A stretch of DNA of 64,000 bases from contig NZ_JACKZY010000002.1 of the NCBI RefSeq assembly GCF_020833685.1, positions 744,001 to 808,000 on the forward strand. The letters run 5' to 3'. The notes below the pieces were generated by a model. It did no database searches. It was not told where the DNA came from and saw nothing but the letters and a program-made list of their open reading frames with translations. Positions 25,146 through 58,381 of this stretch are shown one piece after another. This DNA is from Nitratireductor sp. B36. GTDB taxonomy: Bacteria > Pseudomonadota > Alphaproteobacteria > Rhizobiales > Rhizobiaceae. Numbering within the stretch: the stretch's first letter is position 1; each line of letters begins with the position of its first letter. A program made the translations under genes and the position numbers.

Positions 25146-25155
25146 GGCATTCCCC

Positions 25156-42770: not shown

Positions 42771-43312
42771 GGTGCCTCCCGATCGCACATGACGCCCGCT
42801 TCCCGGGTCAAGTCGCTGTCACCCAAGCGTCATCAGGAAACGGGTTTTCTGTCAATCCGGGAGGCCGCGGAGGGCGTGTTTTACCGGCATTTGCGTTCGA
42901 TGCCGACGATCCCGAGTGCGCAAACAATGTTCTCCCCCGCGCCGGTGTGACGCGGTGGGTTTTCAATATGGCCTGGGAGGGATTGGTCAGTTGACGAGAA
43001 AACCGAACCGCGCACCAGCGAGTGCGCCGGTCTCGCCCGGCATGGTCTTGCCGAACCGCTGACGGGCAAACACCGTGTTCGGGTTCGAGCCCCGTTGGCG
43101 GCGTATAAAGCGGGCAAACAGCTTCATTCTGCGCTCCAGAAACATTTTTATCGAAAGACAATCGGCTCTCACCGAGCGCCTTCTCATGCAGGATGGAGTG
43201 GGGTCGCTCGTTCGATGCAGCGAAATTATCGTGTGCGGATGATCAAGGAGATGGAAAAAGCGAAGCGCACGTTAGAAAAAGCGACATTCAGAGGATCTGC
43301 AGCGCAGGGCAG
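42771..43312. other. Intergenic stretch upstream of the GbdR-like gene
   Basis: About 540 bases with no well-supported gene on the plus strand. It must hold the promoter of the GbdR-like gene. One small minus-strand frame with a GGAG site (42987-43127) is listed separately at low confidence. No strong hairpin, tRNA or repeat is seen. Confidence 0.4.
42987..43127 (-). CDS. Candidate 46-residue basic protein
   Basis: A short frame starting at the ATG at 43127, with GGAG seven bases upstream. The product begins MKLFARFIRRQRGSNPN and ends GARFGFLVN; it is basic, with eight Arg and two Lys, no membrane segment and no known family that I can name. It lies downstream of the terminator at 43313-43343 on the same strand, so it would need its own promoter. 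The support is only the ribosome binding site and the frame, so it may be chance. Confidence 0.25.
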   Translation of the reverse strand: MKLFARFIRRQRGSNPNTVFARQRFGKTMPGETGALAGARFGFLVN

Positions 43313-44769: not shown

Positions 44770-44816
44770 ACGAAACGCGCGCCGTCGGAGCTGAAACAAG
44801 CTGGAGGCCGGTGCAG

Positions 44817-45716
44817 ATGAGTTCGGACGATCGATTGCAGATTGGCGGTGTTTCGCTGTCCAGTCCGGATAAGGTGCTGTTCGAAGAGGACAGTATCACC
44901 AAAAGCGACCTGGCGCGGTATTATGAGCAGGCGAGGCAGCGGATGCTGCCGCATCTGAAGAGGCGGCTCATCAGTCTGGTGCGTTGCCCGGACGGGCGGG
45001 CGAGACCCTGCTTCTTTCAGCGGCATGGCGGGAAAGGGTTCCCGGAGGCTGTGCGACGCCTGGAGATAGCCGAGAAGAGTGGCGATAAGGACGAATATCT
45101 CTATATCGATGATTTGAAGAGCGTGATCGCTGCAGTGCAGATGAGCACGCTGGAATTCCATATCTGGGGCTCGCGCATTGATCGCCTCGAGTTCCCGGAC
45201 CGGCTGGTCTTCGATCTTGACCCTGACCAGGAACTCGATTTCAACGCTGTTCGAAGCGCGGCATTTGCCGTGCGAGCCCGACTGGCTGATCTCGGCCTGC
45301 GTACAGTGGCTCTTTTGACCGGGGGCAAGGGTATCCACGTAGTCGCGCCGCTGGAGCGGCGCCGGCAATGGGCTGATGTCAAGGATTTCGCCCGCGGGTT
45401 TGCAAAACGTCTTTCCGACGACGAGCCTGAACGGTTTCTGGCCGAAGCCTCGAAAGCCAAGCGGGAAGGGCGGGTTTTTGTCGACTGGCTGCGCAACGAA
45501 CGCTCGGCCACGGCCATCGCGCCTTATTCGACGCGAGCGAAGCCCGGAGCGCCAGTGGCCACACCTGTCTCCTGGAGCGAGCTCGAGGCCATCACTTCAT
45601 CCAGTGCTTTCAACTTGACCTCTATGCCAGAGCGACTGAAAGCACCTGATCCTTGGGCTGAGAGTGCCGACTGGCGCCAATCGATCACCGATAAAATGCT
45701 GAAAGCCGTGCATTGA
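44817..45716 (+). CDS. Stand-alone LigD-type DNA primase/polymerase domain
   Basis: A 299-residue protein of the archaeo-eukaryotic primase superfamily equal to the polymerase domain of bacterial LigD, which fills and extends DNA ends in non-homologous end joining. Metal-binding DLDPDQE (catalytic Asp-x-Asp) lies in LVFDLDPDQELDFN; LLTGGKGIHVVAPL and RVFVDWLRNERSATAIAPYS-type blocks follow (FVDWLRNERSATAIAPYS). The ligase and phosphoesterase domains of full LigD are absent and no ku gene is nearby. ATG 44817 is chosen for its GGAGG; a TTG at 44766 overlapping the lysR stop is an alternative. It converges on the reactivase gene of the corrinoid cluster. Confidence 0.88.
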   Translation: MSSDDRLQIGGVSLSSPDKVLFEEDSITKSDLARYYEQARQRMLPHLKRRLISLVRCPDGRARPCFFQRHGGKGFPEAVRRLEIAEKSGDKDEYLYIDDLKSVIAAVQMSTLEFHIWGSRIDRLEFPDRLVFDLDPDQELDFNAVRSAAFAVRARLADLGLRTVALLTGGKGIHVVAPLERRRQWADVKDFARGFAKRLSDDEPERFLAEASKAKREGRVFVDWLRNERSATAIAPYSTRAKPGAPVATPVSWSELEAITSSSAFNLTSMPERLKAPDPWAESADWRQSITDKMLKAVH

Positions 45717-45771: not shown

Positions 45772-47829
45772 CTATTGGTGTTTCCTTCGTGCCGCACGTT
45801 CCTCGCGGGAGCGCCGGCGAGGGCGCGCGTGGCCTGTTTCATTGGCTGCGGTATCCGACCTCGAACGAGGGGGGAGATGCACCTGCCCGGCGAGTTTCAG
45901 GAACGGGTCGACCTTGTTGGGAAGAGCCATGGCATTCACGAAATGCTCCTGGAATTTTGGCTCAAGCGCTGTTTCGATTTTCTCGATGCGGCGCACCGTT
46001 TGTTCGATTTCACGGCGATGGCCGCGATTGAGCAAGGCCATGCGTGCACCCGTTCCGGCGGCGTTGCCAACCGCCGACACACGGGTCAGATCGCAATCGG
46101 GTATGAGACCCAGAACCATGGCATATTGCGGATCGATGAAGGAGCCGAAGGCGCCGGCAAAGCGGATGGTGTCCACGGTCTCCACGTCCTGCTTCTCCAT
46201 CAAAAGCTTGATGCCGGCATAGAGCGCCGCCTTGGCAAGCTGGATGGCCCGTACGTCATTTTGGGTGACAGTGATGCGCGGTTCAGTTTCGCTCAGAACA
46301 TAGGAAAACGTACGGCCCTCGGGGACGATGCGCGGACTTTCACCCGCCAGCATTCCGTTCACCACGCCATCTTCGGAAATGATGCCGGCGAGATACATCT
46401 CCGCGATGACCTCGATGATACCGGAACCGCAGATGCCGGTGACGCCGGTCTGGCCGAGCGAAGCGAGAAAACCCGGTTCGTCCGACCAGAGTTCGCTGCC
46501 GATCACACGAAAACGCGGTGTGAGCGTTTCACGGTCGATGCGCACCCGTTCGATGGCGCCGGGTGCCGCCCGCTGACCGGAGGAAATTTCCGCACCCTCG
46601 AAGGCAGGACCGGTGGGTGAAGATGCGGCGACCACTCGGCTTTTGTTGCCCAGAACGATCTCCGCATTGGTCCCCACATCGACGATGAGCATCATTTCAT
46701 CCTGCCGATGAGGGCCTTCAGAAAGGGTGACGGCAGCTGCGTCGGCTCCGACATGGCCCGCAATGCAGGGCAGGAGATAGGTTCGCGCGCCCGGATTGAG
46801 GTTGAGCTTCAAATCGTCCGCCCTGATGCTGACGGCCTCGGACACTGCCAGCGCGAAGGGGGCACCGCCAAGTTCCGTCGGGTCTATGCCAAGAAACAGG
46901 TGGTGCATGATGGGATTGGCAACAAAGACGGTGTCCAGAATGTCGGTGCGCGCGATGCCGCCGTCTTCGGCAACTTTCTGCACGAGTTTGGAGATTTCCT
47001 CGCGTACGGCGCGGGTCATCCCCTCGCGTCCGTCCGGGTTCATCATCACGTAAGACACCCGACTCATCAGATCTTCGCCGAAGCGGATTTGCGGGTTTGA
47101 CGCGCCAGCCGAGGCCACCACGCGACCCGACAACAGCGACACGAGATGCATGGCGATGGTGGTGGAACCGATGTCGCAGGCAAGACCGTAGGCCTCATTC
47201 TTCAAGCCCGGCCACAGAGCAATGAGCCGGGCAATGTCGTCATCCGAGTCTTGATGGAGGGCGGCGGTAACGGCCCAATTGCCCTTGCGCAAGATCGCCT
47301 GCACTTGTGGCAGGAGATGCGCGTCTACCTCGATGCGACCAAAGCTCCAGTCTCTCTGCAGAGCGGCTTTCAGGCGGTCGAGATCGCCGAGGGGCTTGTG
47401 CATGTCGGGCTCTTCAACCTCGACATAGCAAAGGTGCACGGCGGGGTGTCGCTCGATGACACGCGTATCGGCGTCCTTGCGCACCACCTGCGCATTGATG
47501 ACCGCATCCTGAGGCACATCAACCACCAGATCACCCTCGATGGTGGCGGAACAGGAAAGGCGGCGGCCGGGCGGCAGTACGCGCTTTTCTGCATATCGGG
47601 CTTCCTTTGCGCCGAGCGGTGATATGTGAGCCGGGGACGAAGAAATCTTGTGCTTGGCGAAATGTCCTTCCTGCACCTCAATCTGGCATCGCCCGCAGGT
47701 GGCGCGCCCGCCGCACACGCTCTCCACATAGACACCAAGCTGCCGCGCGGCATCGAGCACGGTCGTGCCCCTTCGGAAGCGACCTCGCTTGCCCGACGGC
47801 ATGAAGAGCACGAGGGGATCGTCATTCAT
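45772..47829 (-). CDS. RamA-like ASKHA-domain corrinoid reactivation protein
   Basis: A 685-residue protein. An N-terminal 2Fe-2S domain has Cys39, Cys45, Cys48 (CGGRATCGRC) and Cys93. The ASKHA ATPase-like region (about 210-650) has ACDIGSTTIAMHL, LIVDVGTNAEIVLGN, ICGSGIIEVIAEM and AGAFGSFIDP, the phosphate and adenosine loops of the family. It would use ATP and an electron to reduce Co(II) to Co(I) in inactivated corrinoid protein. The last 30 residues are a basic tail (RPRRRSREERAARRK). The start at 47829 begins just before the ferredoxin domain. It is the last gene of the corrinoid operon on this strand. Confidence 0.88.
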   Translation of the reverse strand: MNDDPLVLFMPSGKRGRFRRGTTVLDAARQLGVYVESVCGGRATCGRCQIEVQEGHFAKHKISSSPAHISPLGAKEARYAEKRVLPPGRRLSCSATIEGDLVVDVPQDAVINAQVVRKDADTRVIERHPAVHLCYVEVEEPDMHKPLGDLDRLKAALQRDWSFGRIEVDAHLLPQVQAILRKGNWAVTAALHQDSDDDIARLIALWPGLKNEAYGLACDIGSTTIAMHLVSLLSGRVVASAGASNPQIRFGEDLMSRVSYVMMNPDGREGMTRAVREEISKLVQKVAEDGGIARTDILDTVFVANPIMHHLFLGIDPTELGGAPFALAVSEAVSIRADDLKLNLNPGARTYLLPCIAGHVGADAAAVTLSEGPHRQDEMMLIVDVGTNAEIVLGNKSRVVAASSPTGPAFEGAEISSGQRAAPGAIERVRIDRETLTPRFRVIGSELWSDEPGFLASLGQTGVTGICGSGIIEVIAEMYLAGIISEDGVVNGMLAGESPRIVPEGRTFSYVLSETEPRITVTQNDVRAIQLAKAALYAGIKLLMEKQDVETVDTIRFAGAFGSFIDPQYAMVLGLIPDCDLTRVSAVGNAAGTGARMALLNRGHRREIEQTVRRIEKIETALEPKFQEHFVNAMALPNKVDPFLKLAGQVHLPPRSRSDTAANETGHARPRRRSREERAARRKHQ

Positions 47830-47901
47830 GGCGAGGTCCGTTTTCCTGGAAGCGGATCTGGAAATGCGTTGCGTGGCCAGTGGAGGCAAATCAAAGCTTG
47901 T

Positions 47902-48858
47902 TCACCCCCGCGCCCGACGCGCCTCGCGGCCGCCGCGCCGCCGCCCGCCGGAGGAAGCGGGGGCTGCAGCAGCCGCAACCGGCTCGCCTGATGCTGCGGG
48001 CTGGTGGTCGCGATAGGTCATGATCCAGTTCTGGCAGTTTGGGTCTGTGCCGTTCAACACATTGGCCGCGCGCACCATTTCCATTTCCTGCGGACGGCAG
48101 GGGTTCATGATTGCGCTCGTCATGCCGGCTCCGATCACCATGGGGATAAAGCCCGCATTGATGCCATGCCTGTGCGGCAGGCCGAAGGAAATGTTCGAGA
48201 GCCCGCAAGTGGTGTTCACCTTCAACTCCTCTCGAAGTCGCCGCAGGAGACGGAACACCTGCTGGCCGGCGGTCCCCATGGCGCCGATGGGCATCACCAG
48301 AGGATCCACGACGATGTCATGGGCGGGAATGCCATGGTCGGCAGCGCGCTGAACGATTTTTTTTGCAACCTCGAAACGCACATCGGGGTCCTCGGATATT
48401 CCGGTCTCGTCGTTGGAGATGGCGACGACGGGCACGTCATATTTCCGGATCAGCGGAAGGATCGCCTCGAGCTTTTCCTCTTCCCCGGTGACCGAATTGA
48501 CCAAGGGTCTGCCTTTGGCGATCTTCAGGCCCGCCTCGATAGCGGCAGAGACTGAGGAATCGATGGAAAGCGGTACGTCCACCAGGTTCTGTACGATTTC
48601 AAGGGTCTGGACCAGAAGTCCGGGTTCCGTCGCGTTGGGGTCGACCGCCGTAACGCCGGCATTCACGTCGAGCATGGTGGCGCCGGCAGCCACCTGAGCC
48701 AGTGCATCGCTTTTCACGGTCTCGAAATTGCCGGCCACCATTTCCGCAGCGAGCTTTTTTCGCCCGGTCGGGTTGATGCGCTCGCCGATCACGCAGAAAG
48801 GTTGGTCGAAGCCGATCACGACTTCCCGGCTTGCAGAGGCGACGATGGTTCTGGTCAT
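47902..48858 (-). CDS. Methyl-cobalamin:tetrahydrofolate methyltransferase (pterin-binding family)
   Basis: A 318-residue TIM-barrel pterin-binding protein related to MtvA, MtgA and the methyltransferase half of MetH and CFeSP methyltransferases. VIGERINPTGRKKLA, GATMLDVNAGV, PLSIDSSVSAAIEAGL, LVNSVTGEEEKL and VVDPLVMPIGAMG are the folate-binding loops. It would move the methyl group from methyl-cobalamin on the corrinoid protein to THF. The C-terminus, from about residue 288, is not part of the fold: an Ala/Pro/Ser stretch ending GGRRRGGREARRARG. The ribosome binding site AGGAGG lies seven bases before the ATG. It lies between metF-like and ramA-like genes. Confidence 0.88.
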   Translation of the reverse strand: MTRTIVASASREVVIGFDQPFCVIGERINPTGRKKLAAEMVAGNFETVKSDALAQVAAGATMLDVNAGVTAVDPNATEPGLLVQTLEIVQNLVDVPLSIDSSVSAAIEAGLKIAKGRPLVNSVTGEEEKLEAILPLIRKYDVPVVAISNDETGISEDPDVRFEVAKKIVQRAADHGIPAHDIVVDPLVMPIGAMGTAGQQVFRLLRRLREELKVNTTCGLSNISFGLPHRHGINAGFIPMVIGAGMTSAIMNPCRPQEMEMVRAANVLNGTDPNCQNWIMTYRDHQPAASGEPVAAAAAPASSGGRRRGGREARRARG

Positions 48859-48910
48859 TCAAATTCCTCCTGGAGGCATGGTGGGCGTCCATGCGGCTGC
48901 TCGATGGTTT

Positions 48911-50023
48911 TCATTCGCTGGATGCCTCGCTCGCATCCTTCACCATGTCCACGGGCGTTTCGCTCGGATTGTCATGCAGAATGTGATCGAGCCGCTCGGC
49001 CACCATGGCATCGTCGGCGCCCGGCTCCCGCTTCCACGGTTTGCGGCCTTTCAGGACGCCGGAATCGTGAACGATTTCCGCGACGAATTCCTCTTGCCGG
49101 TAGGCCATGACATGAATGCCGGAAACGCCCTCGATTTCCTTCACCTCATTGATGATGTCGATGCACAGGCGCTTGCCTTCTTCCTTCTGCTTTTCCGCGC
49201 CTTCAAGCCGCGTGATCACGGCATCGGGAATGTGGACGCCGGGGACGTTCGAGCGGATCCAGCGGGCGGTTTTTGCCGAGGCGAGCGGCCCAACACCAAC
49301 CAGGATGAAACATTTCTCGTCGAGCCCCATATCGCGCACCCGCTTCATGTAGTCCCTGAGCATCGGCACATCATAGCAGTACTGGCTCTGAACGAATTGC
49401 GCGCCGGCAGCGATCTTTTTGGCAAGTCGGTGAGGGCGAAAATCAAAGGGCGGGGCGAATGGATTGATGGCCGCGCCGAGGAAAACGGCGGGTGGCGTTG
49501 TGAGGGTGCGACCGGAAAGAAACTTTTCCTCGTCGCGCATGGTGCGGACGGTTTCCAGAAGGGACATGCAGTCGAGGTCGAAAACGGGTTTTGCGCCCGG
49601 CTGGTCGCCTGCCTGCACGCCATCGCCCGTCAGGCACATGATATTGCCTACGCCCATGGCGGCGGCCCCCAAAACGTCGCCCTGTATGGCGATGCGGTTC
49701 CTGTCACGACATGCGATCTGCATGATCGTGGCGTAGCCCATGCGCGTGAGCAGCGCGCAGATTCCCATGGAAGACATGTGGCAATTGGCACCGGAGGCGT
49801 CCACTGCGTTGATGCCGTCCACCCATCCATCGAAGATTGCCGCTCGCTCAAAGACATCCTGCGCATTGGCGCTGTCGGGTGGATTGAGTTCTGCTGTCAC
49901 CGCAAATTCACCGCGCCGCAGCACACGTTCCAGCCGGCCCCGCGACGAATGACCGGGCAGGGGCTCGAGCGGCAGGTCGACGCCATCAGGGTTTTCGTCG
50001 ATCTGGGGCGGGCGGGGCATCAT
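48911..50023 (-). CDS. metF: Methylenetetrahydrofolate reductase (MetF family)
   Basis: A 370-residue flavoprotein with the MetF barrel. FAVTAELNPPDSA at the N-terminus contains the catalytic Glu; IMCLTGDGVQAGDQPGAKPV and FVQSQYCYDV carry the folate and flavin contacts. In the direction suited to this cluster it would oxidise methyl-THF to methylene-THF. Compared with E. coli MetF it is longer, with an acidic C-terminal tail. The start overlaps the stop of the upstream metV-like gene by four bases (ATGA). Confidence 0.85.
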   Translation of the reverse strand: MMPRPPQIDENPDGVDLPLEPLPGHSSRGRLERVLRRGEFAVTAELNPPDSANAQDVFERAAIFDGWVDGINAVDASGANCHMSSMGICALLTRMGYATIMQIACRDRNRIAIQGDVLGAAAMGVGNIMCLTGDGVQAGDQPGAKPVFDLDCMSLLETVRTMRDEEKFLSGRTLTTPPAVFLGAAINPFAPPFDFRPHRLAKKIAAGAQFVQSQYCYDVPMLRDYMKRVRDMGLDEKCFILVGVGPLASAKTARWIRSNVPGVHIPDAVITRLEGAEKQKEEGKRLCIDIINEVKEIEGVSGIHVMAYRQEEFVAEIVHDSGVLKGRKPWKREPGADDAMVAERLDHILHDNPSETPVDMVKDASEASSE

Positions 50024-50616
50024 TCAGTATGGCTCCGTTCGGCATCCCGCGTGCGTGCTGCTTGTGCCGTGACCCGTAGCCAGGCAGAGCTTTCTCTTAA
50101 GGACTGGTCGACAGGCTTCTGCACGTCGAAGATCGTTTGCCCCCCGCGCATCGCCTGAGCCCCCTCCCAAGCCTTCACCCAGACGCATGGCATGTCCGGT
50201 TCCACCTCGCAGTTCCCATTGCTGCGTACGCCGCCGCAGGGACCGTTGCGCAGCTGCTTTGGGCAATTCATGGGGCAGGACATGCCAGTGGAAGACAGGA
50301 TGCACTGGCCGCACATGCGGCAGTCGAACATCAACCCCTTCATATGGCGCTCGATGAATTTTACTGGCGCCTCGGCGCGTGCATACCCTACGGCCTTCCA
50401 GAATGGGTGAAGGAGGAGGAAGAAGCGCGAAAAGCGAGCGTAGACCCATTCAAGAAAGCGCGCGTGGCGCACAGACCAGCGGCGCATCGTATAGCGGCGC
50501 TGGACGCGGCGCTGCGGCGAAACATCGGCTGGTTTGTAAGCAAGGGTTTCACGCGCCTTTTTTACCAGCGTTGCCTGGGTGACGGTCGGTGGCTTTGTGG
50601 CGCTATCGATCGGCAT
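50020..50616 (-). CDS. MTHFR C-terminal domain protein (MetV-like)
   Basis: A 198-residue Cys-rich protein of the methylenetetrahydrofolate reductase C-terminal family, the partner subunit (MetV) of MetF in acetogens. Eight Cys at 99, 102, 105, 114, 118, 127, 136 and 144 form CRMCGQCILSSTGMSCPMNC and then NGPCGGVRSNGNC with PC, fit for zinc or an iron-sulfur cluster. In acetogens this partner passes electrons to or stabilises MetF. The ATG at 50616 is chosen because the frame upstream overlaps another gene. It overlaps the PF13769 gene by 14 bases and metF by four bases, so the three are coupled. Confidence 0.85.
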   Translation of the reverse strand: MPIDSATKPPTVTQATLVKKARETLAYKPADVSPQRRVQRRYTMRRWSVRHARFLEWVYARFSRFFLLLHPFWKAVGYARAEAPVKFIERHMKGLMFDCRMCGQCILSSTGMSCPMNCPKQLRNGPCGGVRSNGNCEVEPDMPCVWVKAWEGAQAMRGGQTIFDVQKPVDQSLRESSAWLRVTAQAARTRDAERSHTE

Positions 50617-50905
50617 GGCCACCCGCCTTGACGAGCGCCAGCAGGCGTTCTCTGTTGAACTCGCGGTCAATCGCTTCAAGAGCCAGATTGGCCTCTGCTT
50701 CCAGATCGTCGCTAACGGAGACCGGCTCGCCGCGCCGCCACTCGGCAAGGTAGGCGTCGGTGTCCCGCGCGCCGACGCGCATGGCGCACATGTCGATGGC
50801 CTCGGTGAAGCGAAGGGGCAGTTCGCGCTTGGCTGTCTGCCGTCCCTTTCTGACAATCACCTGAGCGGGGATGTCGCGCCAATATACTATGATCAGCTGG
50901 GCCAT
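50603..50905 (-). CDS. PF13769 ("virulence factor") family small protein
   Basis: A 100-residue protein that starts MAQLIIVYWRDIPAQVIV and contains AIDMCAMRVGARDTDAYLAEW, both marks of the PF13769 family. The family name says virulence factor, but no virulence role follows from it; members are found next to corrinoid methyltransferase genes in Rhizobiales. AGGAAGG lies upstream of the ATG. It overlaps the metV-like gene by 14 bases, which links it to the methyl-transfer pathway. The mixed alpha/beta composition, with a single Cys, suggests a soluble protein. Confidence 0.8.
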   Translation of the reverse strand: MAQLIIVYWRDIPAQVIVRKGRQTAKRELPLRFTEAIDMCAMRVGARDTDAYLAEWRRGEPVSVSDDLEAEANLALEAIDREFNRERLLALVKAGGHADR

Positions 50906-51019
50906 AAGCGCCTGTTCCTTCCTCGATTTTCAGAATTGCTGCATTGCTGCGCGCCCGCTTGCTGCAAGGCGACGCGCGTGCATTCAAATGCGACGTGGAA
51001 GGGAAGAGTAGCGCGAGGG

Positions 51020-51667
51020 CTAGTGCATCACAGCGCCGGCCATCATGCTGGCGCCGATCACGACGCCCGCAATGACCATGAGGGAGAGGACACCACAGGT
51101 GATGGCAATACCAAGAAGGATACCGTCACGCTCGGAGAGGGCCAATCCGATCAGCGCACAGGAGAAGGCGGGAAACCAGTTGCCGAGCGGGATAGGAAGG
51201 GTCACGGCGATCGACAGGATCAGGGCGGCAAGGCCGATGATCCTGTCGGCATGATCGCGTGCAAACGGCCAGTAACGCGGCTTGATCAGCCGCTCGAGCC
51301 AGATCAGACGCGGGATGAGGCGTTCGCTCATATGGCGAAATTTGTCGGCGCCGATGGCCTTGTTGAGCAGGAAACGGGGTAGCCAGACGGTGCGATTGCC
51401 CATCACCATCTGCAGGGCGACCAGAACCAGCGGCGGCCCGAGCACGAGCGTGCTGCCGGGGGGGAAGGGCAGGAGGTTGAGGCTGGCAAAGAAAACAAGA
51501 AGGGTGGCGAAGCTGCGGTCGCCCAGCGCCTGGCGGATTTCGCCGATGGTTACCTTGTCTTCAGCGTGCTTCGCGAGGTCGCGAAAGATGCGCGACAGCC
51601 TGCGCGGCGGAAGGTGAGCCGGCGGTGCGCTCAACACCGTATCCAAATCCATTCCCTCCGCCTTCAT
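51020..51667 (-). CDS. exoD: ExoD family membrane protein
   Basis: A 215-residue inner-membrane protein of the ExoD family. The N-terminal soluble part has KVTIGEIRQALGDRSFATLLVFFASLN in two recognisable pieces (TIGEIRQALGDRSFA and LLVFFASLNLLPFPPG), followed by four to five membrane helices (about 65-85, 88-108, 140-165, 168-190 and 195-213). In Sinorhizobium meliloti ExoD is needed for effective nodule invasion and alkaline tolerance, though its activity is not known. The start may also be ATG 51652. It sits between corrinoid-cluster genes but need not be part of that pathway. Confidence 0.87.
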   Translation of the reverse strand: MKAEGMDLDTVLSAPPAHLPPRRLSRIFRDLAKHAEDKVTIGEIRQALGDRSFATLLVFFASLNLLPFPPGSTLVLGPPLVLVALQMVMGNRTVWLPRFLLNKAIGADKFRHMSERLIPRLIWLERLIKPRYWPFARDHADRIIGLAALILSIAVTLPIPLGNWFPAFSCALIGLALSERDGILLGIAITCGVLSLMVIAGVVIGASMMAGAVMH

Positions 51668-51778
51668 TTCACTCTTTAGCCAGCCGTTCGAATCCCGGTC
51701 GGGATGACGTACAGTTTTGTATGGATGGCGTTAAGCCTTCATGACAAAAGCCGCAAGCATCGTTCTGCTGGCCCAGGC

Positions 51779-52408
51779 TTATGGGAGACGGCGGAATTCA
51801 AGAATATCGAGCACGGATTCACGCTGCGGTGCCGGGAATTCCATCCGCCAACCATCGTCACGGTCGCGAAAAACATAGGCTACCTGATCGCTGTCGCGGC
51901 CGGAGCCATAGGATGGCGGGCGGTCGGGCGACACGAAATAGCTGCCGAGATAAATCAGCCGATTGTCGGAGTCGGTAAAAAAGCGGCCTTTGGTCCGCTG
52001 CGATCCGGTCAGTTTTTCCAACACCCAGCCGGCGCCGTCGTCACTGACCTTGCAACGGAACCAGTCATAGACCACGAGTGGAACAAGACCGCCTGCTTTT
52101 ATGGTGCGGCACTCCCAATCGCCCGTGAGATCGAACTCCTCAAACGAGCGTTGATCGCGCTGCTCGATTTCTTCCAGAATTGCCACATCCGGCGCTGCTC
52201 CACCGGTTTTCGCCTGCTTCACGGCTTCGGCACGTATCCGTTCATATGCGTCGAGACGCGCGGCGTCGCGGTAAGTGATGTCCTGCATCACCGTGTCTTT
52301 TTCGAAACCGGCCCGCTCCATATCGAGTTTTTCCTGAACCAGCGACTGTGCGCTTACCGGGACTGTGCTCAGGCCTATAACCAGGGCGGGGAGGAAAATG
52401 CGGCGCAT
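51779..52408 (-). CDS. DUF4893 family exported protein
   Basis: A 209-residue exported protein with a signal peptide (residues 1-20, VPVSAQ cleavage). The mature part has the DUF4893 pattern: DITYRDAARLDAYERI, DLTGDWECRTIKAGG, VYDWFRCKVSDDGAGWVLEKLTG (in part: YDWFRCKVSDDGAGW), and AYVFRDRDDGWRMEFP near the end. Two conserved Cys may form a disulfide. The role is unknown. It lies between exoD and the DUF1638 gene on the same strand with gaps of 111 and 80 bases. Confidence 0.85.
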   Translation of the reverse strand: MRRIFLPALVIGLSTVPVSAQSLVQEKLDMERAGFEKDTVMQDITYRDAARLDAYERIRAEAVKQAKTGGAAPDVAILEEIEQRDQRSFEEFDLTGDWECRTIKAGGLVPLVVYDWFRCKVSDDGAGWVLEKLTGSQRTKGRFFTDSDNRLIYLGSYFVSPDRPPSYGSGRDSDQVAYVFRDRDDGWRMEFPAPQRESVLDILEFRRLP

Positions 52409-52488
52409 GAAAATATCTCCTGAAAATCACCTAATATGCTGGAAAATTGCACCGCCAATGTAACCATTTCATGGCGTCGGATGCGCCG

Positions 52489-53124
52489 CTATCGACCGCT
52501 TTGCGCCGCTAAGGCAAGCGCGTTGGTCAGATCGCCGTAGCCGGTTTGACGCTTTTCATAGGCCAATCCCAAAAAAACTGCCGCATTCTGCGCGACGCGT
52601 TCGAGCTCTGGGTCTTCTGTCTGCGCAAGGTAGACGAGTTTCTCATAATTGCCGAAGAAATCGCCGATCAATTCGGGATGCCTGTCGAGACCGAGCGGTT
52701 TCATGAAAAAGGCATCGAACTGGCGACACAGAAAGTCGGTCATGTAGAAGGAAAGCATGTCGTCTTCGGCAGTGGCATTGAAGGCCGAAAGCCCCTGGTA
52801 AAATGCAAAACAATGCGGGCCATCGATGCGCGGGACACCGTGTTTCTCACAGACGCGGTCGAGCGCTCCTCCGGTGCCGCAATCCGCATAACCGACGAAG
52901 ATGTGACGATAGCCCTTCGAGCGCGCCTTGATTATGGCCGCATCCATGGCGGGGGCGATCCGGTCGGGGCGATAATGGTATTCTGCGGGGAGGCAGGTCA
53001 GCTCCAGATGCGTGAAGCCAAGCGCGTCTCGCACTGCCAGAACCTCTCGCGCGATCATGCCGCATGCGATGACGAGAACCTTTTCGGGTCCGAGAACTTT
53101 TTGCGGTTTCGCGCGTTTCTGCAT
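52489..53124 (-). CDS. DUF1638 family protein
   Basis: A 211-residue soluble protein of the DUF1638 family. VLVIACGMIAREVLAV near the N-terminus, LPAEYHYRPDRIAPAMDAAI, HIFVGYADCGTGGALDRVC and the C-terminal FGNYEKLVYLAQTED are its conserved blocks. Four Cys occur in the first 150 residues, in CGMI, CLPAEYH, DCGTGG and VCEKH contexts, plus His, suggesting a metal site. The family is found near methyltransferase and corrinoid genes in archaea and bacteria, as here, so it may insert or recognise the corrinoid or the methylated substrate. The ATG at 53124 is chosen over a GTG at 53130. Confidence 0.82.
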   Translation of the reverse strand: MQKRAKPQKVLGPEKVLVIACGMIAREVLAVRDALGFTHLELTCLPAEYHYRPDRIAPAMDAAIIKARSKGYRHIFVGYADCGTGGALDRVCEKHGVPRIDGPHCFAFYQGLSAFNATAEDDMLSFYMTDFLCRQFDAFFMKPLGLDRHPELIGDFFGNYEKLVYLAQTEDPELERVAQNAAVFLGLAYEKRQTGYGDLTNALALAAQSGR

Positions 53125-53173
53125 CGTCACTGTCCCGTTGATGCGGGCGATCTATCTGCGATGGAGACAAACC

Positions 53174-53332
53174 ATGAAAGTGTCCCTTCTTTCCCGGCTG
53201 GCCATTCTCGTTCTCGTCGCCGGTTCTGTTGCCGGCTGCGCCAACACAATTCGCGGCGTTGGCAAGGATGCGGCCAACGCGGTCGACGCAACGCAGAGCG
53301 CGGGACGCGACATTTCGCGGTCTACCTACTGA
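53174..53332 (+). CDS. Entericidin-like small lipoprotein
   Basis: A 52-residue lipoprotein: the ATG at 53174 follows GGAG, residues 1-23 form the signal with lipobox VAGC (Cys25), and the mature part reads ANTIRGVGKDAANAVDATQ, typical of the entericidin A/B family. Entericidins act as small cell-envelope toxin/antidote peptides in E. coli; the Rhizobiales versions are usually single genes of unknown role. The gene is the only plus-strand gene in this part of the corrinoid cluster, lying between the divergent DUF1638 and the convergent corrinoid protein gene. Confidence 0.85.
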   Translation: MKVSLLSRLAILVLVAGSVAGCANTIRGVGKDAANAVDATQSAGRDISRSTY

Positions 53333-53362
53333 CACCCGACCGGCGGGTGAGCATAGCCAGGA

Positions 53363-54061
53363 TCAGGCGCCAGCCGATACATTGTGCTTGCGCTTGATCA
53401 GTTCCTTGGCCATCTCGACCGTTACCGCCGCGTCGCGGCAATAGGCATCGGCTCCCACCGCCTTGCCGAACTCTTCGTTGAGCGGCGCACCGCCGACGAG
53501 GACAATGTAGTCGTCGCGGATGCCTTTTTCCTTCATCGTGTCGATGACGACCTTCATATAAGGCATGGTGGTCGTCAGCAGTGCGGACATACCGACAATG
53601 TCCGGCTGATGCTCCTCGATGGCATTCAGGTAATTTTCAACCGGATTGTTGATGCCGATGTCGATAACATCGAAGCCGGCACCTTCCATCATCATTCCGA
53701 CCAGGTTCTTGCCGATGTCGTGGATGTCGCCCTTGACTGTCCCGATCACCATCTTGCCTTGCTTGGGCGCGCCGGTTTCGGCAAGAAGCGGCCGCAGGAT
53801 GGCCATGCCGGCTTTCATTGCGTTGGCCGAAAGGAGCACCTCAGGGACGAAGAGAATGCCGTCACGAAAATCCTCACCGACGATGCGCATGCCTTCAACC
53901 AGAGCGTCCGTCAGCACTTCATAGGGTTGCCACCCGCGGCTCAGAAGGATGTGCGTGCCTTCCTCGATCTCCTCTTTGAGCCCGTCATAAAGGTCGTCGT
54001 GCATCTGCTGCACGAGCTCGTCATCCGGAAGCTCCGAGAGGATGATTTCGTCGTCGGACAT
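53363..54061 (-). CDS. Corrinoid (B12-binding) methyl carrier protein
   Basis: A 232-residue protein of the MttC/MtbC type. The N-terminal four-helix cap (about 15-95) covers the cofactor: LYDGLKEEIEEGTHILLSRG and FRDGILFVPEVLLSANAMKAG (in pieces FVPEVLLSANAMKAG). The B12 domain has the His-on signature DIHDIGKN (Asp112, His114, Gly117), then VGMSALLTTTMP (Ser-x-Leu loop) and LVGGAPL (GG loop). It carries the methyl group from the MttB-like protein to the THF methyltransferase. ATG 54061 has AGGAGG six bases upstream; an ATG at 54100 is 13 codons earlier. It is divergent from the A-B-C-A-B array. Confidence 0.92.
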   Translation of the reverse strand: MSDDEIILSELPDDELVQQMHDDLYDGLKEEIEEGTHILLSRGWQPYEVLTDALVEGMRIVGEDFRDGILFVPEVLLSANAMKAGMAILRPLLAETGAPKQGKMVIGTVKGDIHDIGKNLVGMMMEGAGFDVIDIGINNPVENYLNAIEEHQPDIVGMSALLTTTMPYMKVVIDTMKEKGIRDDYIVLVGGAPLNEEFGKAVGADAYCRDAAVTVEMAKELIKRKHNVSAGA

Positions 54062-54366
54062 GCTCTGCCTCCTGCTCGTCATGTTGCGCAAACGTTGCAT
54101 GCCGTGCTGCGCTCATGATGGTACGCCATAGTGCGATGTCGGCAGAATACGGTGCGAAACACCTGAATATATAGCTGATTTGCGACTCGGGCCGTCAGGA
54201 AAGCGACGGCCTGACACAAGCGGCACTGGCAGCGAAGATAGAAATTGAAAGGTTGTATTCTTATGAGCCTAAAATCATAGGTTGATTATTAGCGGTATGT
54301 TAAGCGGTGTAGGGTTTCATAGAAGCTGCAAGAGGGGGCTTGTCTGCTTGTGTAAGGAGCAGGGTC
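54062..54366. promoter_or_regulatory. Divergent promoter region with nested inverted repeats
   Basis: 305 bases between the corrinoid protein gene (leftward) and the first small exported-protein gene (rightward). It holds two overlapping inverted repeats: GGCCGTC/GACGGCC (54190-54196 with 54205-54211) and GTCAGG/CCTGAC (54194-54199 with 54210-54215). The part next to the rightward gene is AT-rich, with a TTGAAA at 54245. The repeats may be an operator or a hairpin; no gene is seen. Confidence 0.5.
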
Positions 54367-54837
54367 ATGTTCAGAACCTCTCTATCTGCAGTTTTGCTTA
54401 GCGCCATTTTTATTGCACCCGCCGCGGCTGTTACTGACACGGTCATTTTCAACGGCAATGTCATTTCAACATGTCTGATCACTGTAGGAACGCCCGGTAT
54501 TCTGTCTACCAATGGCGCGATGAATGTCCTTTCATCGAGCGAGGCAGGTGGCGTTTCAGGTACGGCCACCGTTGTCACCACGGGAGCGGGGTTCAATCTA
54601 TCGACGTCCGCGCCATCGACCTTTTTTCTCGCGCCTGCTGGCGGAGATGACGATGTGAGCTTTGCCACGCATTACAGCGCGTCAGGGGTGACATCGCTCC
54701 TCGATGTGGTGGGCTCTGTCACGTCTCCGCTCGGGCTCGGCTTGACCAATGTCGATGTCGATCTGTCCGCAACGAAGTCGGCTGGTGTTTTTCCCGCTGG
54801 AAATTACACGGCCCAGGTGACGCTGACCTGTGAATAA
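54367..54837 (+). CDS. Exported pilin-like protein A1 (spore coat U-like type)
   Basis: A 156-residue protein with a signal peptide (residues 1-22, ending in APAAA). The mature part is rich in Ser, Thr, Val and Gly with regular beta-strand spacing, one Cys near its start (STCLITVG) and one at the very end (TLTCE). GNYTAQVTLTCE at the C-terminus is like the last strand of spore coat U and pilin-fold subunits. An AAGGAG lies seven bases before the ATG at 54367. It is a paralogue of the gene at 55763 (shared TTGAGF, AGG, Y-A-VT-TCE). It overlaps the next gene by eight bases. A surface-fibre subunit is inferred; no usher gene is nearby. Confidence 0.75.
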   Translation: MFRTSLSAVLLSAIFIAPAAAVTDTVIFNGNVISTCLITVGTPGILSTNGAMNVLSSSEAGGVSGTATVVTTGAGFNLSTSAPSTFFLAPAGGDDDVSFATHYSASGVTSLLDVVGSVTSPLGLGLTNVDVDLSATKSAGVFPAGNYTAQVTLTCE

Positions 54838-55228
54838 ACGTGTGTGGATGAGTGTCGTGCTGGCCGCGGTCGTCGCGGCTGGTTGCGGCGCGAGCGCTGC
54901 GCAGTCGATGACGCCGATGCGCGGCAAGATATCGAGTTTTGACGATACGTTTTCGGTGCGGGTTTTTCCTTACAACCCCTATCCGCACAGAATTCGCATG
55001 GCGGTGAAAGTCTACGATCAAGACTTCCGGCCGATCGCTGCGCAGGTTTCTCCCGCAGAAGCGATGGTCGGCAGCAAATCATCCCGCTCTGTGCTCGTCT
55101 CGATAGGGTTCAACGACCAGAAGGTCAGGCGTGTCAGGATCTGTACCGAGAGTGTGCCGTTTCCTGGCCGCGGCACCAACATTAAGGCTCAAGTATGCGG
55201 ACGTTTCATAGCTTATCGTATCGATTGA
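54830..55228 (+). CDS. Exported chaperone-like protein B1 (PapD N-terminal-like)
   Basis: A 132-residue protein. A GTG start at 54830 gives the basic N-terminus NKR and then a signal peptide (WMSVVLAAVVAAGCGASAA); the cleavage site may be after ASA, or the Cys could be lipidated. The mature domain starts QSMTPMRGKISSFDDTF and has VRVFPYNPYPHRIRMAVKV, DFRPIAAQVSP and SSRSVLVSIGF, ending in RRVRICTESVPF and AQVCGRFIAY. The block order is that of the first domain of pilus chaperones (PapD-like), but the second domain is missing. Two Cys may form a disulfide. It is 8 bases overlapped with A1 and about 34 bases with the next gene. Close paralogue of 56229-56615. Confidence 0.72.
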   Translation: MNKRVWMSVVLAAVVAAGCGASAAQSMTPMRGKISSFDDTFSVRVFPYNPYPHRIRMAVKVYDQDFRPIAAQVSPAEAMVGSKSSRSVLVSIGFNDQKVRRVRICTESVPFPGRGTNIKAQVCGRFIAYRID

Positions 55229-55653
55229 TGGGGGGCTTTGTGCTTCTGTTCCTGAGCGCATCCGTTGTTTACGGGGATAGCGATCAGTATGTCATCAATC
55301 AAAATCAGACCGGTGTGACCCTGCCTGGGGTTGTGATGCCGAATGGCTTTGACGAGATCAGGGCGGCGGACGGGACCACCTGCCGTGCCTCCATGGCGAA
55401 TTCCGGTGCTTATCTGGATTCAGGCGTCATCGGAGACAACAGTTCGCACCGCATTTCCGCCTATGGGCGACTGGTGGTGCCGCTGGGGCAAAAACCGCGG
55501 CGGCTGGACTGCGACAAGCTTTATCAGCTGGAACTGAAACGTCTGGAACTGGAGGTTGAGCTCATGCGGCAGGGGCTGGATCCGCGCATGCGGTCTAATC
55601 CCGAGGGAGATTGGGCAAGCGACGCTTCCTGGTCCAACAAGGGCAGGCGCTAA
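55195..55653 (+). CDS. Exported protein C of unknown function
   Basis: A 152-residue protein with a signal peptide (ending in SASVVYG at about residue 27). AAGG lies seven bases before the ATG at 55195; an ATG at 55228, at the stop of B1, is an alternative start. The mature part has YVINQNQTGVTLPGVVMPNGF, two Cys (GTTCRASM and RLDCDKL) and a heptad-like helix LYQLELKRLELEVELMRQG near the end, which looks coiled-coil. I do not recognise the family. It lies between the two A-B pairs and shares their layout of overlapping genes, so it probably belongs to the same system. Confidence 0.65.
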   Translation: MRTFHSLSYRLMGGFVLLFLSASVVYGDSDQYVINQNQTGVTLPGVVMPNGFDEIRAADGTTCRASMANSGAYLDSGVIGDNSSHRISAYGRLVVPLGQKPRRLDCDKLYQLELKRLELEVELMRQGLDPRMRSNPEGDWASDASWSNKGRR

Positions 55654-55762
55654 CAGCGCCTGTTCTTTGGGATAATTGTTTCTTTTCATGCTCTTATTCC
55701 TGTTGACGGAGCTTTGTTTCGGCACTACATGGCGCCCTTGATTTTCAACCTAGGGTTTTGTC

Positions 55763-56221
55763 ATGAAGTATATTTATTCTTGTGCGTTGTTGCTTTTGAG
55801 TACCGTTTCCTCTTTCGGAGCCCAGCTTGATATTCCTTTTAGAGCCTCTCTTGAGGAGAGCTGCACCATCGAGCTTCAGTCCGATGGTTTGCTCGTTCGG
55901 GATGGTTTGGAAGTTCTGGATTCCGCAGCCGCCGGTGGGCGGGCTGGCGTGGCTACGATCTACACGACAGGTGCCGGGTTTCAGACCTCGCTGAATACGC
56001 CGCAAGCCTTTTCATCTGCTCCGAGCGGCACGGGCGGTGTGACGTTCACCTCCACCTATAGCTCGACAGGGGCCACGACCACTCCGAAAGTTGCAGGTTC
56101 GACCATCACTTCGCTTGAAGTGGGTGCCAGCACTCTGTCGGTGGATCTCCGTGCCGTAGCGAGCAATGCCATCTTCCAGAAAGGCGATTATGAAGCCTTC
56201 GTCACAGTGACCTGTGAATAG
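55763..56221 (+). CDS. Exported pilin-like protein A2
   Basis: A 152-residue paralogue of A1: signal peptide (residues 1-19, ending in SFGA), first Cys in ESCTIELQSDG, AGGRAGVATIYTTGAGF, FTSTYSSTGATT and the end GDYEAFVTVTCE, matching A1 in the same order. Its C-terminus again has the Tyr-x-Ala-x-Val-Thr pattern of pilin-type last strands. It is 109 bases after gene C, with the motif AGGG upstream. The stop codon lies seven bases inside the possible GTG start of B2. The pair A2-B2 repeats the layout A1-B1, so it arose by tandem duplication. Confidence 0.73.
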   Translation: MKYIYSCALLLLSTVSSFGAQLDIPFRASLEESCTIELQSDGLLVRDGLEVLDSAAAGGRAGVATIYTTGAGFQTSLNTPQAFSSAPSGTGGVTFTSTYSSTGATTTPKVAGSTITSLEVGASTLSVDLRAVASNAIFQKGDYEAFVTVTCE

Positions 56222-56228
56222 GGAAATC

Positions 56229-56615
56229 ATGTACAGATTGATACTGGCAGTGATGATTGCGGCTTGCGCCGGTACTACACCGGCCTGGTCGCAATCCATG
56301 TCGCCCATGCGGGGAGAGATCCGCAGTTTCGCGGACAGTTTCGCTGTACGGGTGCAGCCGAGGAACCCCTACAAACATCGCATCAATGTGAGCATTCGCG
56401 CTTATGATGCGGATTTCAGGCCGATTGAAGCGCGCATATCGCCACCGGATTTTTCGCTCGGGGCCGGTGCCTCGCGCTCGGTGCTGGTTGTGGTGAATTT
56501 CAACGGAGCACGTGAACGAAGGGTGCGTATATGCACCGAGAGCGCACCTCTTGCAGGCAAGGGCGTTGGAATGAAGGCGCAGATCTGCGGAAAATTCATC
56601 GGCCATCATCTGTGA
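56229..56615 (+). CDS. Exported chaperone-like protein B2
   Basis: A 128-residue paralogue of B1. The ATG at 56229 has AGGG five bases upstream; a GTG at 56214 overlapping A2 is the alternative. A signal peptide ends in PAWSQS. The mature part has SMSPMRGEIRSFADSF, NPYKHRINVSIRAYDADFRP, ASRSVLVVVNF, RRVRICTESAPL and KAQICGKFIGHH, aligning with B1 along its whole length. Both B proteins keep the two Cys in RICTES and Q-CG-FI. It is the last gene of the array, about 180 bases before the MttB-family gene. Confidence 0.72.
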   Translation: MYRLILAVMIAACAGTTPAWSQSMSPMRGEIRSFADSFAVRVQPRNPYKHRINVSIRAYDADFRPIEARISPPDFSLGAGASRSVLVVVNFNGARERRVRICTESAPLAGKGVGMKAQICGKFIGHHL

Positions 56616-56797
56616 GGCGTGATTGGCAATGAGCTCTCTGCGGGAAACGATGGCAGATCGATCGTTTCCATTTTTACGCTGTTCCCTTCTGCTCACCAGT
56701 TGCGACACCATCTGCCGCTCGCGGAACGGAAGTTGCCGCTGCAGACGCTAGGCTCGCATCATGAGTCTCATGACGATCCTGGCGTGGAGTTTGCGCG

Positions 56798-58381
56798 ATG
56801 ACGATGATGGCCGGTGACGAGGGAACACAGGATCTGCCGCGCCGGAGCCGCTCCGGACGTGGCGAGCGCGGTGGCGCGGCGGCGCGCAGGGCGGCGCGAA
56901 GCAGTGGCGGGCCGGGGCTGCAATTGTCGTATATCCGCCGGTCGCTGAAACCCTATGAGGTGCTCGATGAGGAAGCGCTTTCACTCGTGGAGGCAAATGC
57001 CGACACGGTTCTCGAGGAGATAGGGATTGAATTCCGTGATGATCCGGAAGCGCTTTCTCTCTGGAAGGACGCGGGAGCGGATGTCAGAGGTGACAGGGTG
57101 CATTTCCCCAAGGGATTGTGCCGGCAACTTCTCAAAACGGCACCTTCAACCTTCACGCAGCACGCGCGCAATCGGGAGCGTTCTGTGGAGATCGGTGGCA
57201 ACTCCACGGTCTTTGCGCCGGTCTATGGTCCACCCTTTGTGCGGGATCTCGATGGAACGCGCCGCTATGCGACCATTGAAGATTTCCGTAATTTCGTAAA
57301 ACTCGCCTATATGGCTCCATCGATCCATCATTCAGGCGGCACCGTGTGCGAGCCTGTGGATGTGCCGGTCAACAAGCGCCATCTCGACATGGTGTTTGCG
57401 CATATGCGCTATTCCGACAAGCCCTTCATGGGCTCTGTCACGGCGCCGGATCGCGCCGAAGACACGGTCGCCATGGCGAAAATTCTGTTTGGCGAGGATT
57501 TTGTCGATCAGAACACAGTGGTCATTAATCTGATCAACGCCAACTCGCCCATGGTCTTTGACGAAACCATGCTGGGAGCGGCAAAGGTCTATGCGCGGGC
57601 CAATCAGGCCTGCATCGTCACACCATTCATTCTCGCCGGCGCCATGAGTCCGGTCACGGTCATCGGCACACTGACGCAGGTCCTGGCCGAAGTTCTGGCC
57701 GGTGCAGCGTTCACGCAACTCGTTCGTCCCGGAGCGCCAGTTCTTTTCGGCACGTTCGCTTCCTCGATTTCCATGCAATCGGGCGCGCCCACCTTCGGTA
57801 CGCCGGAACCCTCTCTGGTTTCCTACGGGGCAGCGCAGCTTGCGCGACGCCTTGGGCTTCCCTTCCGAACCGGTGGTTCGCTCACGGGCTCCAAGATACC
57901 TGATGCCCAGGCGGCTTATGAAAGCGCCAACACGCTGAACTCGACCGTTCTCGCTGGAACCAATTTCGTGCTTCACGCAGCTGGATGGCTGGAGGGCGGC
58001 CTGGTCTCTTCCTATGAGAAGTTCATGATGGATGTCGATCAGCTCGGCATGCAACAGCGGCTGTGTGAACCTCTCGACGTTTCGGAAAATGGTCAGGCGA
58101 TGGACGCGATCCGCGAAGTGGGGCCGGGAAGCCATTATCTGGGCTGTGCCCATACGCAGGCCAATTTCCAGACGGCGTTCTATCGCTCGTCAGTTGCCGA
58201 CAACAATTCCTATGAGCAATGGGCGGGAGAGGGTGAGAAAACCGCGGCGCAACGGGCCAACCAGCTCGCCCGGAGCTGGCTCGACGCGTATCAGGCCCCG
58301 CCACTCGATGCAGGCATTGAAGAGGGCCTGCTTGATTTTATCGCCCGGCGGAAGGAATCGATGCCGGACGCCTTCGCGTGA
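56798..58381 (+). CDS. MttB-family corrinoid methyltransferase without pyrrolysine
   Basis: A 527-residue TIM-barrel methyltransferase of the trimethylamine methyltransferase (MttB) superfamily. Residues 14-38 are a basic, Arg/Gly/Ala-rich tail. From about residue 41, LSYIRRSLKPYEVLDEEALS and then IHHSGGTVCEPVDVP, LVRPGAPVLFGTFASSISMQ (in part: GAPVLFGTFASS), GLPFRTGGSLTGSKIPDAQA and HAAGWLEGGLVSSYEKF follow the family. No in-frame amber codon is present, so this is the non-pyrrolysine branch, whose known members act on glycine betaine, proline betaine or carnitine. It would pass the methyl group to the corrinoid protein. GGAG lies eight bases before the ATG. The substrate is not known. Confidence 0.9.
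   Translation: MTMMAGDEGTQDLPRRSRSGRGERGGAAARRAARSSGGPGLQLSYIRRSLKPYEVLDEEALSLVEANADTVLEEIGIEFRDDPEALSLWKDAGADVRGDRVHFPKGLCRQLLKTAPSTFTQHARNRERSVEIGGNSTVFAPVYGPPFVRDLDGTRRYATIEDFRNFVKLAYMAPSIHHSGGTVCEPVDVPVNKRHLDMVFAHMRYSDKPFMGSVTAPDRAEDTVAMAKILFGEDFVDQNTVVINLINANSPMVFDETMLGAAKVYARANQACIVTPFILAGAMSPVTVIGTLTQVLAEVLAGAAFTQLVRPGAPVLFGTFASSISMQSGAPTFGTPEPSLVSYGAAQLARRLGLPFRTGGSLTGSKIPDAQAAYESANTLNSTVLAGTNFVLHAAGWLEGGLVSSYEKFMMDVDQLGMQQRLCEPLDVSENGQAMDAIREVGPGSHYLGCAHTQANFQTAFYRSSVADNNSYEQWAGEGEKTAAQRANQLARSWLDAYQAPPLDAGIEEGLLDFIARRKESMPDAFA

Follow-up and report, generated by a model that had tools for sequence, protein, structure and literature searches.

How does a corrinoid-dependent methyl-transfer system whose parts are encoded by separate genes hold together in an apparently aerobic bacterium, and how might it keep its oxygen-sensitive cobalt in use? 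The question is raised by a gene cluster of Nitratireductor sp. B36, located at positions 45772–58381 of a stretch of 64,000 nucleotides (contig NZ_JACKZY010000002.1, positions 744,001 to 808,000) that was analyzed as a whole and is hereafter called the window. The cluster encodes a methyltransferase of the MttB family (MtgB), a separate corrinoid carrier (MtgC), a pterin-binding methyltransferase (MtgD) and a corrinoid reactivase (RACE), and a further methyltransferase, MtgE, is encoded elsewhere in the genome. We report that an Arg-rich terminal tag is common to four protein families that contact the carrier, a feature that is new relative to the literature searched, and we weigh the possibility that this tag docks the enzymes on MtgC.

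The original prediction, made from the nucleotide sequence of the window, had described a complete corrinoid methyl-transfer system of the non-pyrrolysine type, and every part that it named was found by Pfam. The MttB-family protein matches PF06253 with 788 bits over profile positions 2–500 of 500, in an open frame without stop or amber codon; the carrier with the motif DIHDIGKN combines PF02310 (B12-binding) and PF02607 (B12-binding_2); the 2Fe-2S reactivase of the ASKHA type contains Fer2 and the RACo_linker, Raco_middle and RACo_C_ter domains; and the pterin-binding methyltransferase, MetF and the MetV-like protein correspond to PF00809, PF02219 and PF12225, respectively. To these we add a DUF1638 protein, a PF13769 protein, MtgE, a second MttB and the shared tags. 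The aerobic appearance of the host is borne out by three COX1-type matches over cut-off in its genome, and yet the proposal that such a system is odd in an aerobe must be abandoned, since the same kind of system is known by mutants in the aerobic Ruegeria pomeroyi (PMC12478193). In that organism, proteomics and mtgC and mtgD mutants show that MtgBCD demethylates glycine betaine, while MtgCD forms a split methionine synthase with MtgE (PMC12478193). Mutant fitness data of aerobically grown Phaeobacter inhibens further identified the split synthase, a RamA-like protein and DUF1638, the latter two being tied to B12 reactivation (PMC5764234). With aerobic operation established in relatives, the surprise over finding the system in an aerobe falls away. 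Judged by its gene content, the window system is the published aerobic MtgBCDE betaine demethylase and split methionine synthase; demethylation, formation of methyl-tetrahydrofolate (methyl-THF) and the need for reactivation proteins are established in those relatives and would apply here by analogy.

An Arginine-Rich Tag on Four Protein Families

An Arg/Gly-rich stretch is present at the N-terminus of the MttB-family protein and at the C-termini of MtgD, RACE and MtgE. In the host it reads RRSRSGRGERGGAAARRAAR in MtgB (56840–56899, within the plus-strand gene at 56798–58381), GGRRRGGREARRARG in MtgD (47905–47949, within the minus-strand gene at 47902–48858), RPRRRSREERAARRKHQ in RACE (45775–45825, within the minus-strand gene at 45772–47889) and GARRSRRGRN in MtgE, a PF02574 protein encoded on another contig (G000:C1:302940-304091). 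The last 15 residues contain seven Arg in MtgD, seven in RACE and five in MtgE.

Relatives were collected by a scan of named genomes that returned at least 588 confirmed MttB relatives, from which 80 loci were kept and read; the counts include truncated loci, in which either the contig or the fetched flank stops short. Gene families seen in 12 or more of these loci number 26; ranked by the median count of Arg over their last 25 residues, RACE (8), MtgE (7) and MtgD (6) come first, and the next family has 4. The identity of the three top families was checked. When at least five Arg or Lys in the last 15 residues are required, with open-ended and short matches excluded, the tag is found in 52/52 RACE, 64/64 MtgE and 63/70 MtgD, while the neighbouring families have it rarely or never (MetF2 0/53, DUF1638 0/75, PF13769 0/71, ExoD 0/31, MetV 1/54 and DUF4893 1/49); MtgC itself reaches this threshold in 49/76 copies, owing to its KRKHN end. 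When the five residues must all be Arg, the tagged families are hardly affected (RACE 51/52, MtgE 64/64, MtgD 63/70) and the other families drop to zero: MtgC 0/76, MetF2 0/53, MetV 0/54, PF13769 0/71, ExoD 0/31, DUF4893 0/49 and DUF1638 0/75. The background in the host, estimated from 20 genome stretches, is 3 of 212 coding-like open reading frames (ORFs) with at least five Arg in the last 15 residues and none with six.

The distribution of the tag was also followed in a class sample of 96 alphaproteobacterial genomes, 24 of which have MttB; 23 of these were followed up, G126 being left out for its fragmentary MttB matches. A close MtgC was found in 22 of the 23, a reactivase match in all (one a fragment) and a close MtgD in 22 (one partial). 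By the rule that counts Arg and Lys, the tag is present in 19/22 MtgD, 20/22 RACE and 18/21 MtgE; G165 for MtgD and G153 for MtgE, where the sole match is to a MetH domain, stand outside the respective counts. As for the N-terminal form, 63 of 69 MttB proteins outside the window have at least six basic residues in 25 (read in ORFs with 300 residues or more that were taken from 70 loci, namely part of the class-sample MttB places plus L329). In the host background, by a slightly different rule, N-terminal stretches with at least six Arg occur in 16/212 ORFs and with at least seven in 4/212. Most MttB paralogues keep the tag even where their enzyme bodies are only 25–30% identical, in forms such as RRGGREARRAARAAPL and RRSGGRAARRASRAAPL. 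The annotated start includes the stretch in the plasmid MttB of Leisingera sp. M527, Cereibacter sphaeroides 2.4.1, Rhodobacter sp. CZR27 and Sinorhizobium meliloti (pSymA), and the plasmid MttB of Roseobacter litoralis has a weaker one. Solved relatives end near the folded core: the alignment with 9yce begins at its residue 3, which corresponds to window residue 50, and only 10 residues of RACo (3zyy) extend past the aligned part vs. 47 in RACE of the window. The MetH of the host carries no such tag at either end.

Since Arg is over-represented in proteins of genomes with high guanine-plus-cytosine (GC) content and the tag sequences vary, one could regard the tails as functionless drift of composition. 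We consider this extremely improbable and have rejected GC drift as their cause. G171, whose fetched loci have 34% GC, keeps the tags with codons that are largely AGA (also CGT, CGC and AGG), and because of this base composition cannot be what produces them; the low host background and the untagged genes next to the tagged ones speak against drift as well. A scan of 22 genomes (G126 and G181 left out) for the coding pattern of RRGGRxARR gave matches at the level of the reversed-pattern control, with 3+3 vs. 3+5 in the host, and so neither reveals nor rules out further tagged families.

Searches of the literature for arginine-rich tails together with corrinoid, cobalamin or methionine synthase returned no mention of the tag, subscription papers and supplements lying outside these searches, and the tag did not turn up in word searches of PMC12478193, PMC12366255 and PMC5764234 either; in the main texts of the first and the last of these, neither tails nor arginine-rich ends are mentioned. 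The sequences support the tag well, and what we infer is its partner.

MtgC as a Candidate Docking Partner

By analogy with characterized members of these families, MtgC is the one protein that all the tagged enzymes must meet. Its gene lies at 53363–54061 on the minus strand; the original prediction had placed the start at 54100, which an alignment of 20 sequences corrects to 54061. Two NCBIfam models of MtgC fall short of their cut-offs, one with 214 bits (cut-off 370) and the other with 182 (cut-off 310). Beyond the part that aligns with 1y80 and MttC, the N-terminus is conserved and acidic, as in the window segment MSDDEIILSELPDDELVQQM (54002–54061); with starts chosen by rule, its acidic excess is 5–11 in the class-sample copies and 5–8 in 77 of the loci. 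A single close MtgC is found in every one of the 22 genomes, and in G147 it faces 11 near-full-length MttB places among 14 matches.

In the mechanism that we propose, MtgB would demethylate a quaternary amine, for which glycine betaine is the most likely candidate, and load the methyl group onto the Co(I) of MtgC, MtgD would pass it from MtgC to THF, and MetF2 with MetV would oxidize the resulting methyl-THF, a flow that the gene set suggests for the host. MtgE could deliver the same methyl group to homocysteine, and RACE together with DUF1638 would return oxidized Co(II) to Co(I). The basic tag, which looks flexible, would dock MtgB and its paralogues, MtgD, MtgE and RACE on MtgC, allowing one carrier to serve many methyltransferases with electrostatics in place of the covalent linkage of MetH; such docking would keep the dissociated enzyme together and the reactivase near the oxygen-sensitive cobalt. 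The parts, their synteny, the tags, the acidic end, the one-to-many ratio and the taxonomic spread in the samples are read from the sequences themselves. Taken as a whole, an aerobic MtgBCDE system with tag docking on MtgC seems to us reasonably probable, while for the direct binding of the tag to MtgC we put the chances at about even. More tentative is a docking code in which all clients of a single MtgC assemble on its acidic N-terminus, each by way of one conserved basic tag at its N- or C-terminus; the clients would be MtgD, MtgE, the reactivase and the MttB paralogues, of which one of the sampled genomes has as many as 11 near-full-length ones.

In composition (Arg/Gly, with low-complexity linkers) the tags resemble RGG tails that bind nucleic acids, and this composition is common to the client families. 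The tags could accordingly bind RNA or DNA, or drive condensates in which the enzymes cluster without specific contact with MtgC. We regard this explanation as unlikely, given that the tag sorts by carrier contact, with MetF2, MetV, ExoD, DUF4893 and PF13769 proteins of the same clusters lacking it, and that the acidic end of the carrier, present in 22/22 class-sample MtgC, speaks against it.

A tether to some other partner, such as the membrane, an unseen scaffold, or DUF1638 and the PF13769 protein, which are conserved neighbours and as such candidates, appears improbable to us, for the chemistry established for these families requires every tagged enzyme to make contact with MtgC. The DUF1638 protein (52489–53130, minus strand; PF07796), a candidate second reactivation factor in view of its role in the literature (PMC5764234), has no relative in the PDB by sequence at E ≤ 1, and its AlphaFold model (mean predicted local distance difference test, pLDDT, of 70.9) gave no match to a solved fold at E ≤ 0.001 in a Foldseek comparison with the PDB. 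Its Cys and His residues that are invariant in 23 aligned sequences (C23, C46, H52, C84, H106, C107 and C135) suggest that it binds a metal or cluster.

Docking on MtgC finds additional support in the pairing of tag and acidic end across lineages, which does not amount to proof because the lineages are not strictly independent. In L329, a locus from outside the class with an MtgC of 75% identity, the tags of MttB, MtgD and RACE occur together with the acidic segment. Eight distant loci with RACE and corrinoid proteins from two other families of Pseudomonadota (L330–L337) show no tag in the RACE C-termini (readable in 7 of the 8) and no MtgC-like segment in the carrier N-termini (readable in 6 of the 8), which is a weak control with carriers only 23–31% identical.

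Several observations weigh against the docking proposal. In the class sample none of the tag-bearing families is free of misses, all counted as such: for MtgD, L176 and L180, in which the basic stretch lies slightly inside the end, and the fragment L196; for RACE, L165, in which a long additional tail comes after the stretch, and L172, which lacks the tag; for MtgE, L209, whose match extends beyond a stop that RRRSSRR precedes, as well as L222 and L224, both without tag. Six of the 69 MttB N-termini are below threshold (L256, L257, L258, L265, L271 and L286), and in the genome of L258 only the usual carrier passed E 1e-20. Of the three MttB proteins with a dedicated neighbouring carrier (L255, L256 and L257), which would be the best control that nature offers and were not used as support, one is clearly untagged and two have ambiguous starts with basic stretches. 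DUF1638, although linked to reactivation too, is untagged; the C-terminus of MtgC is itself basic (KRKHN); and the MtgC model (mean pLDDT 59.7, from a shallow alignment) is too poor to place the acidic segment. Apart from docking, the host genome also encodes a full MetH (2176 bits), so that methionine synthesis by the split enzyme may be dispensable in this bacterium.

The Substrate of MtgB

The original prediction had seen no clear substrate for the MttB-family protein; gene context and pocket residues now point to glycine betaine. A trimethylamine enzyme was considered and rejected, as the pyrrolysine column of Methanosarcina MttB (Pyl334) aligns with Leu362 of the window protein, which scores 273 bits against TIGR02369 (cut-off 525). 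Its closest PDB entry, 4yyc (946 bits), is labelled a putative trimethylamine methyltransferase, and is followed by 2qne (408 bits; labelled a putative methyltransferase) and 9yce (406 bits; labelled a glycine betaine methyltransferase). Entry 2qne is named as MtgB in PMC9842639. For Desulfitobacterium hafniense MtgB, docking led to the proposal of Y94, N199, R309 and H345 as betaine contacts (PMC6855144), and all four of these predicted contacts are kept in the printed alignment as Y143, N247, R357 and H393 of the window protein. A point against betaine is position 353 of the D. hafniense protein, where the aromatic residue (Phe) is replaced by Gly401 in window MtgB.

The surrounding genes provide what looks like the rest of a betaine-to-glycine route. 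They encode a GbdR-like regulator of the AraC family (41772–42788, minus strand; best NCBIfam match GbdR with 367 bits, cut-off 480), from which betaine sensing may be presumed; a protein resembling dimethylglycine (DMG) and sarcosine dehydrogenases with flavin adenine dinucleotide-binding and GcvT domains (37744–40263, plus strand; DAO, FAO_M, GCV_T and GCV_T_C), for the downstream step; and a SoxG/A/B-like region of heterotetrameric sarcosine oxidase (21297–26613, minus strand; SoxG with 22.9 bits for a cut-off of 21, SO_alpha_A3/GCV_T and DAO). The dehydrogenase-like protein and the SoxB-, SoxA- and SoxG-like proteins had been recognized beforehand and are supported by Pfam. PF00848 has a single match in the genome, with 210 bits for BenA (benzoate dioxygenase) and 117 for GbcA (cut-off 670); no other ring-hydroxylase was found, and this one does not qualify as GbcA. 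Because of the GbdR-like regulator, the demethylation genes, the kept contacts and the lack of a fitting GbcA, glycine betaine is our best guess, and a likely one, for the substrate of window MtgB.

The second MttB of the host could instead be the betaine enzyme, leaving the window protein to act on another quaternary amine such as proline betaine, carnitine or a choline-type compound. The gene of this second protein adjoins a DMG-dehydrogenase-like gene on the other contig, and the two MttB genes share a cluster in some relatives, among them L065, L073–L075 and L091. We find this arrangement doubtful: the second MttB has Ala at the position of Y94 and keeps the other three predicted contacts, vs. 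all four in window MtgB, and the Gly at position 353 is common to both proteins.

Organization of the Cluster and Its Genomic Setting

From 54061 down to 45772 the minus strand encodes MtgC, DUF1638, DUF4893, an ExoD-family protein, the PF13769 protein, MetV, MetF2, MtgD and the reactivase, with mtgB divergent on the opposite strand. RACE is RamA/RACo-like, with 301 bits for RACo_C_ter in Pfam and 322 bits with PDB 3zyy, and the NCBIfam models of corrinoid activases match it with scores below their cut-offs. MtgD, a putative methyl-THF:corrinoid methyltransferase, scores 400.7 bits against NCBIfam PRK07535 (cut-off 259). MetF2 (48911–50023, minus strand), a member of the methylene-THF reductase family (MTHFR), is expected to work in the oxidative direction. 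The cysteine-rich protein of MetV type (50020–50616, minus strand), with the C-terminal domain DUF5981, had been given a start at 50856; relatives favour 50616, which is probably correct.

The same genes recur in the usual order across the 80 loci, which rules out chance association. Around the MttB relative, MtgC is present in 77 loci, DUF1638 in 76, PF13769 and MtgD in 71 each, RACE in 65, MtgE in 64, and MetF2 and MetV in 54 each. The usual order is reactivase, mtgD, metF2-metV, PF13769, DUF1638 and mtgC, then divergent mtgB, which is often followed downstream by mtgE and sometimes by a second MttB and a DMG-dehydrogenase-like gene. The loci are nearly all labelled Mesorhizobium, Sinorhizobium, Phyllobacterium, Aquamicrobium or other Hyphomicrobiales, and the highest identity to window MttB among the matches listed is ~86% (Aquamicrobium and Chelativorans), which points to a host of Rhizobiaceae type. 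With such relatives and a published aerobic system, the idea that the cluster is a rarity was discarded. In the host, the genes of MtgE, the second MttB and its neighbour lie on the other contig, near a cobyric acid synthase gene.

Some variations were noted. The metF2-metV pair was not found in some relatives, and L065 has a different MTHFR-family gene (5299–6207, 35 bits) between mtgD and the PF13769 gene, which suggests that the enzyme oxidizing methyl-THF has been swapped in this and similar loci; in L023 the next gene listed is ExoD-like. G069 and G105, of the same family as the host, show no match to the MetH activation domain and have two proteins of the homocysteine methyltransferase family, and the split synthase may have replaced MetH in these genomes. 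A plasmid labelled Paracoccus aminovorans (NZ_CP109864.1, 670122–671576) encodes an MttB 84% identical to that of the window, no less close than the copies of Mesorhizobium; this is a hint of either horizontal transfer or a problem with the label.

The small PF13769 protein (50603–50905, minus strand; 87 bits), whose family name Virulence_fact is a mere label, lies beside metV and is an unexplained candidate component of the system. Between mtgC and mtgB, at 54340–56615, there are five small ORFs without Pfam match, four of which form two paralogous pairs (58/152 and 68/131 aligned residues identical); our impression is that they look secreted and fimbria-type. The gap to the aligned MtgB start is 2.7 kb here and 0.25–1 kb in 77 relatives, save two with 1.8 and 2.8 kb. 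A gene of LigD-type primase-polymerase (44766–45716) adjoins the cluster.

Implications

Among the routes by which N-osmolytes are demethylated in the ocean, MtgBCD is presented as a major one (PMC12478193), and MttB paralogues lacking an assigned substrate are numerous. If the docking proposal is true, the portable tag would provide a sequence rule for finding further clients of a shared B12 carrier and would explain how a split methionine synthase holds together; aerobic bacteria could extend demethylation to further substrates each time they acquire a tagged methyltransferase, and oxygen-sensitive Co(I) would be kept close to its reactivase. Should the tag set access to the carrier, the management of Co(I) in aerobes becomes testable via the removal of a tail of about 15 residues.

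Comparison with Known Systems

The closest known systems are the aerobic MtgBCDE of R. pomeroyi, P. inhibens and S. meliloti, in the last of which the mtg genes are reported to be colocalized (PMC12478193, PMC5764234). The window shares with them a non-pyrrolysine MttB, a separate carrier, a PF00809 methyltransferase, a RamA-like protein, DUF1638 and MetF2, as well as MtgE elsewhere in the genome. It differs by the additional presence of full MetH, as in some Hyphomicrobiales genomes that have both MetH and MtgBCD (PMC12478193), by the location of MtgE and a second MttB on another contig and by the five small ORFs between mtgC and mtgB.

The MtgABC system of D. hafniense is represented by 2qne and by 9yce, which we assign to the D. 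hafniense type on account of the agreement between its printed letters and those of 2qne. It has a betaine:corrinoid methyltransferase of the MttB superfamily with the same predicted contacts, but 9yce has no N-terminal tag, unlike MtgB of the window. Its THF methyltransferase, MtgA, is a different protein from MtgD. The pyrrolysine MttB and MttC of Methanosarcina (7xcl and 7xcn) belong to the same family and use the same carrier chemistry, whereas the window protein has Leu362 in the pyrrolysine column. Cobalamin-dependent methionine synthase, MetH, shares the chemistry and the module families; its modules for homocysteine, folate, cobalamin and activation are covalently joined, whereas here they are separate genes.

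The recruitment of several enzymes to a hub by one small element is familiar from the peripheral-subunit-binding domains of E2 proteins and from the cargo peptides of bacterial compartments. The window system differs from E2-type docking elements in that the element is a basic Arg/Gly tail, placed at either terminus and apparently directed towards a mobile corrinoid carrier.

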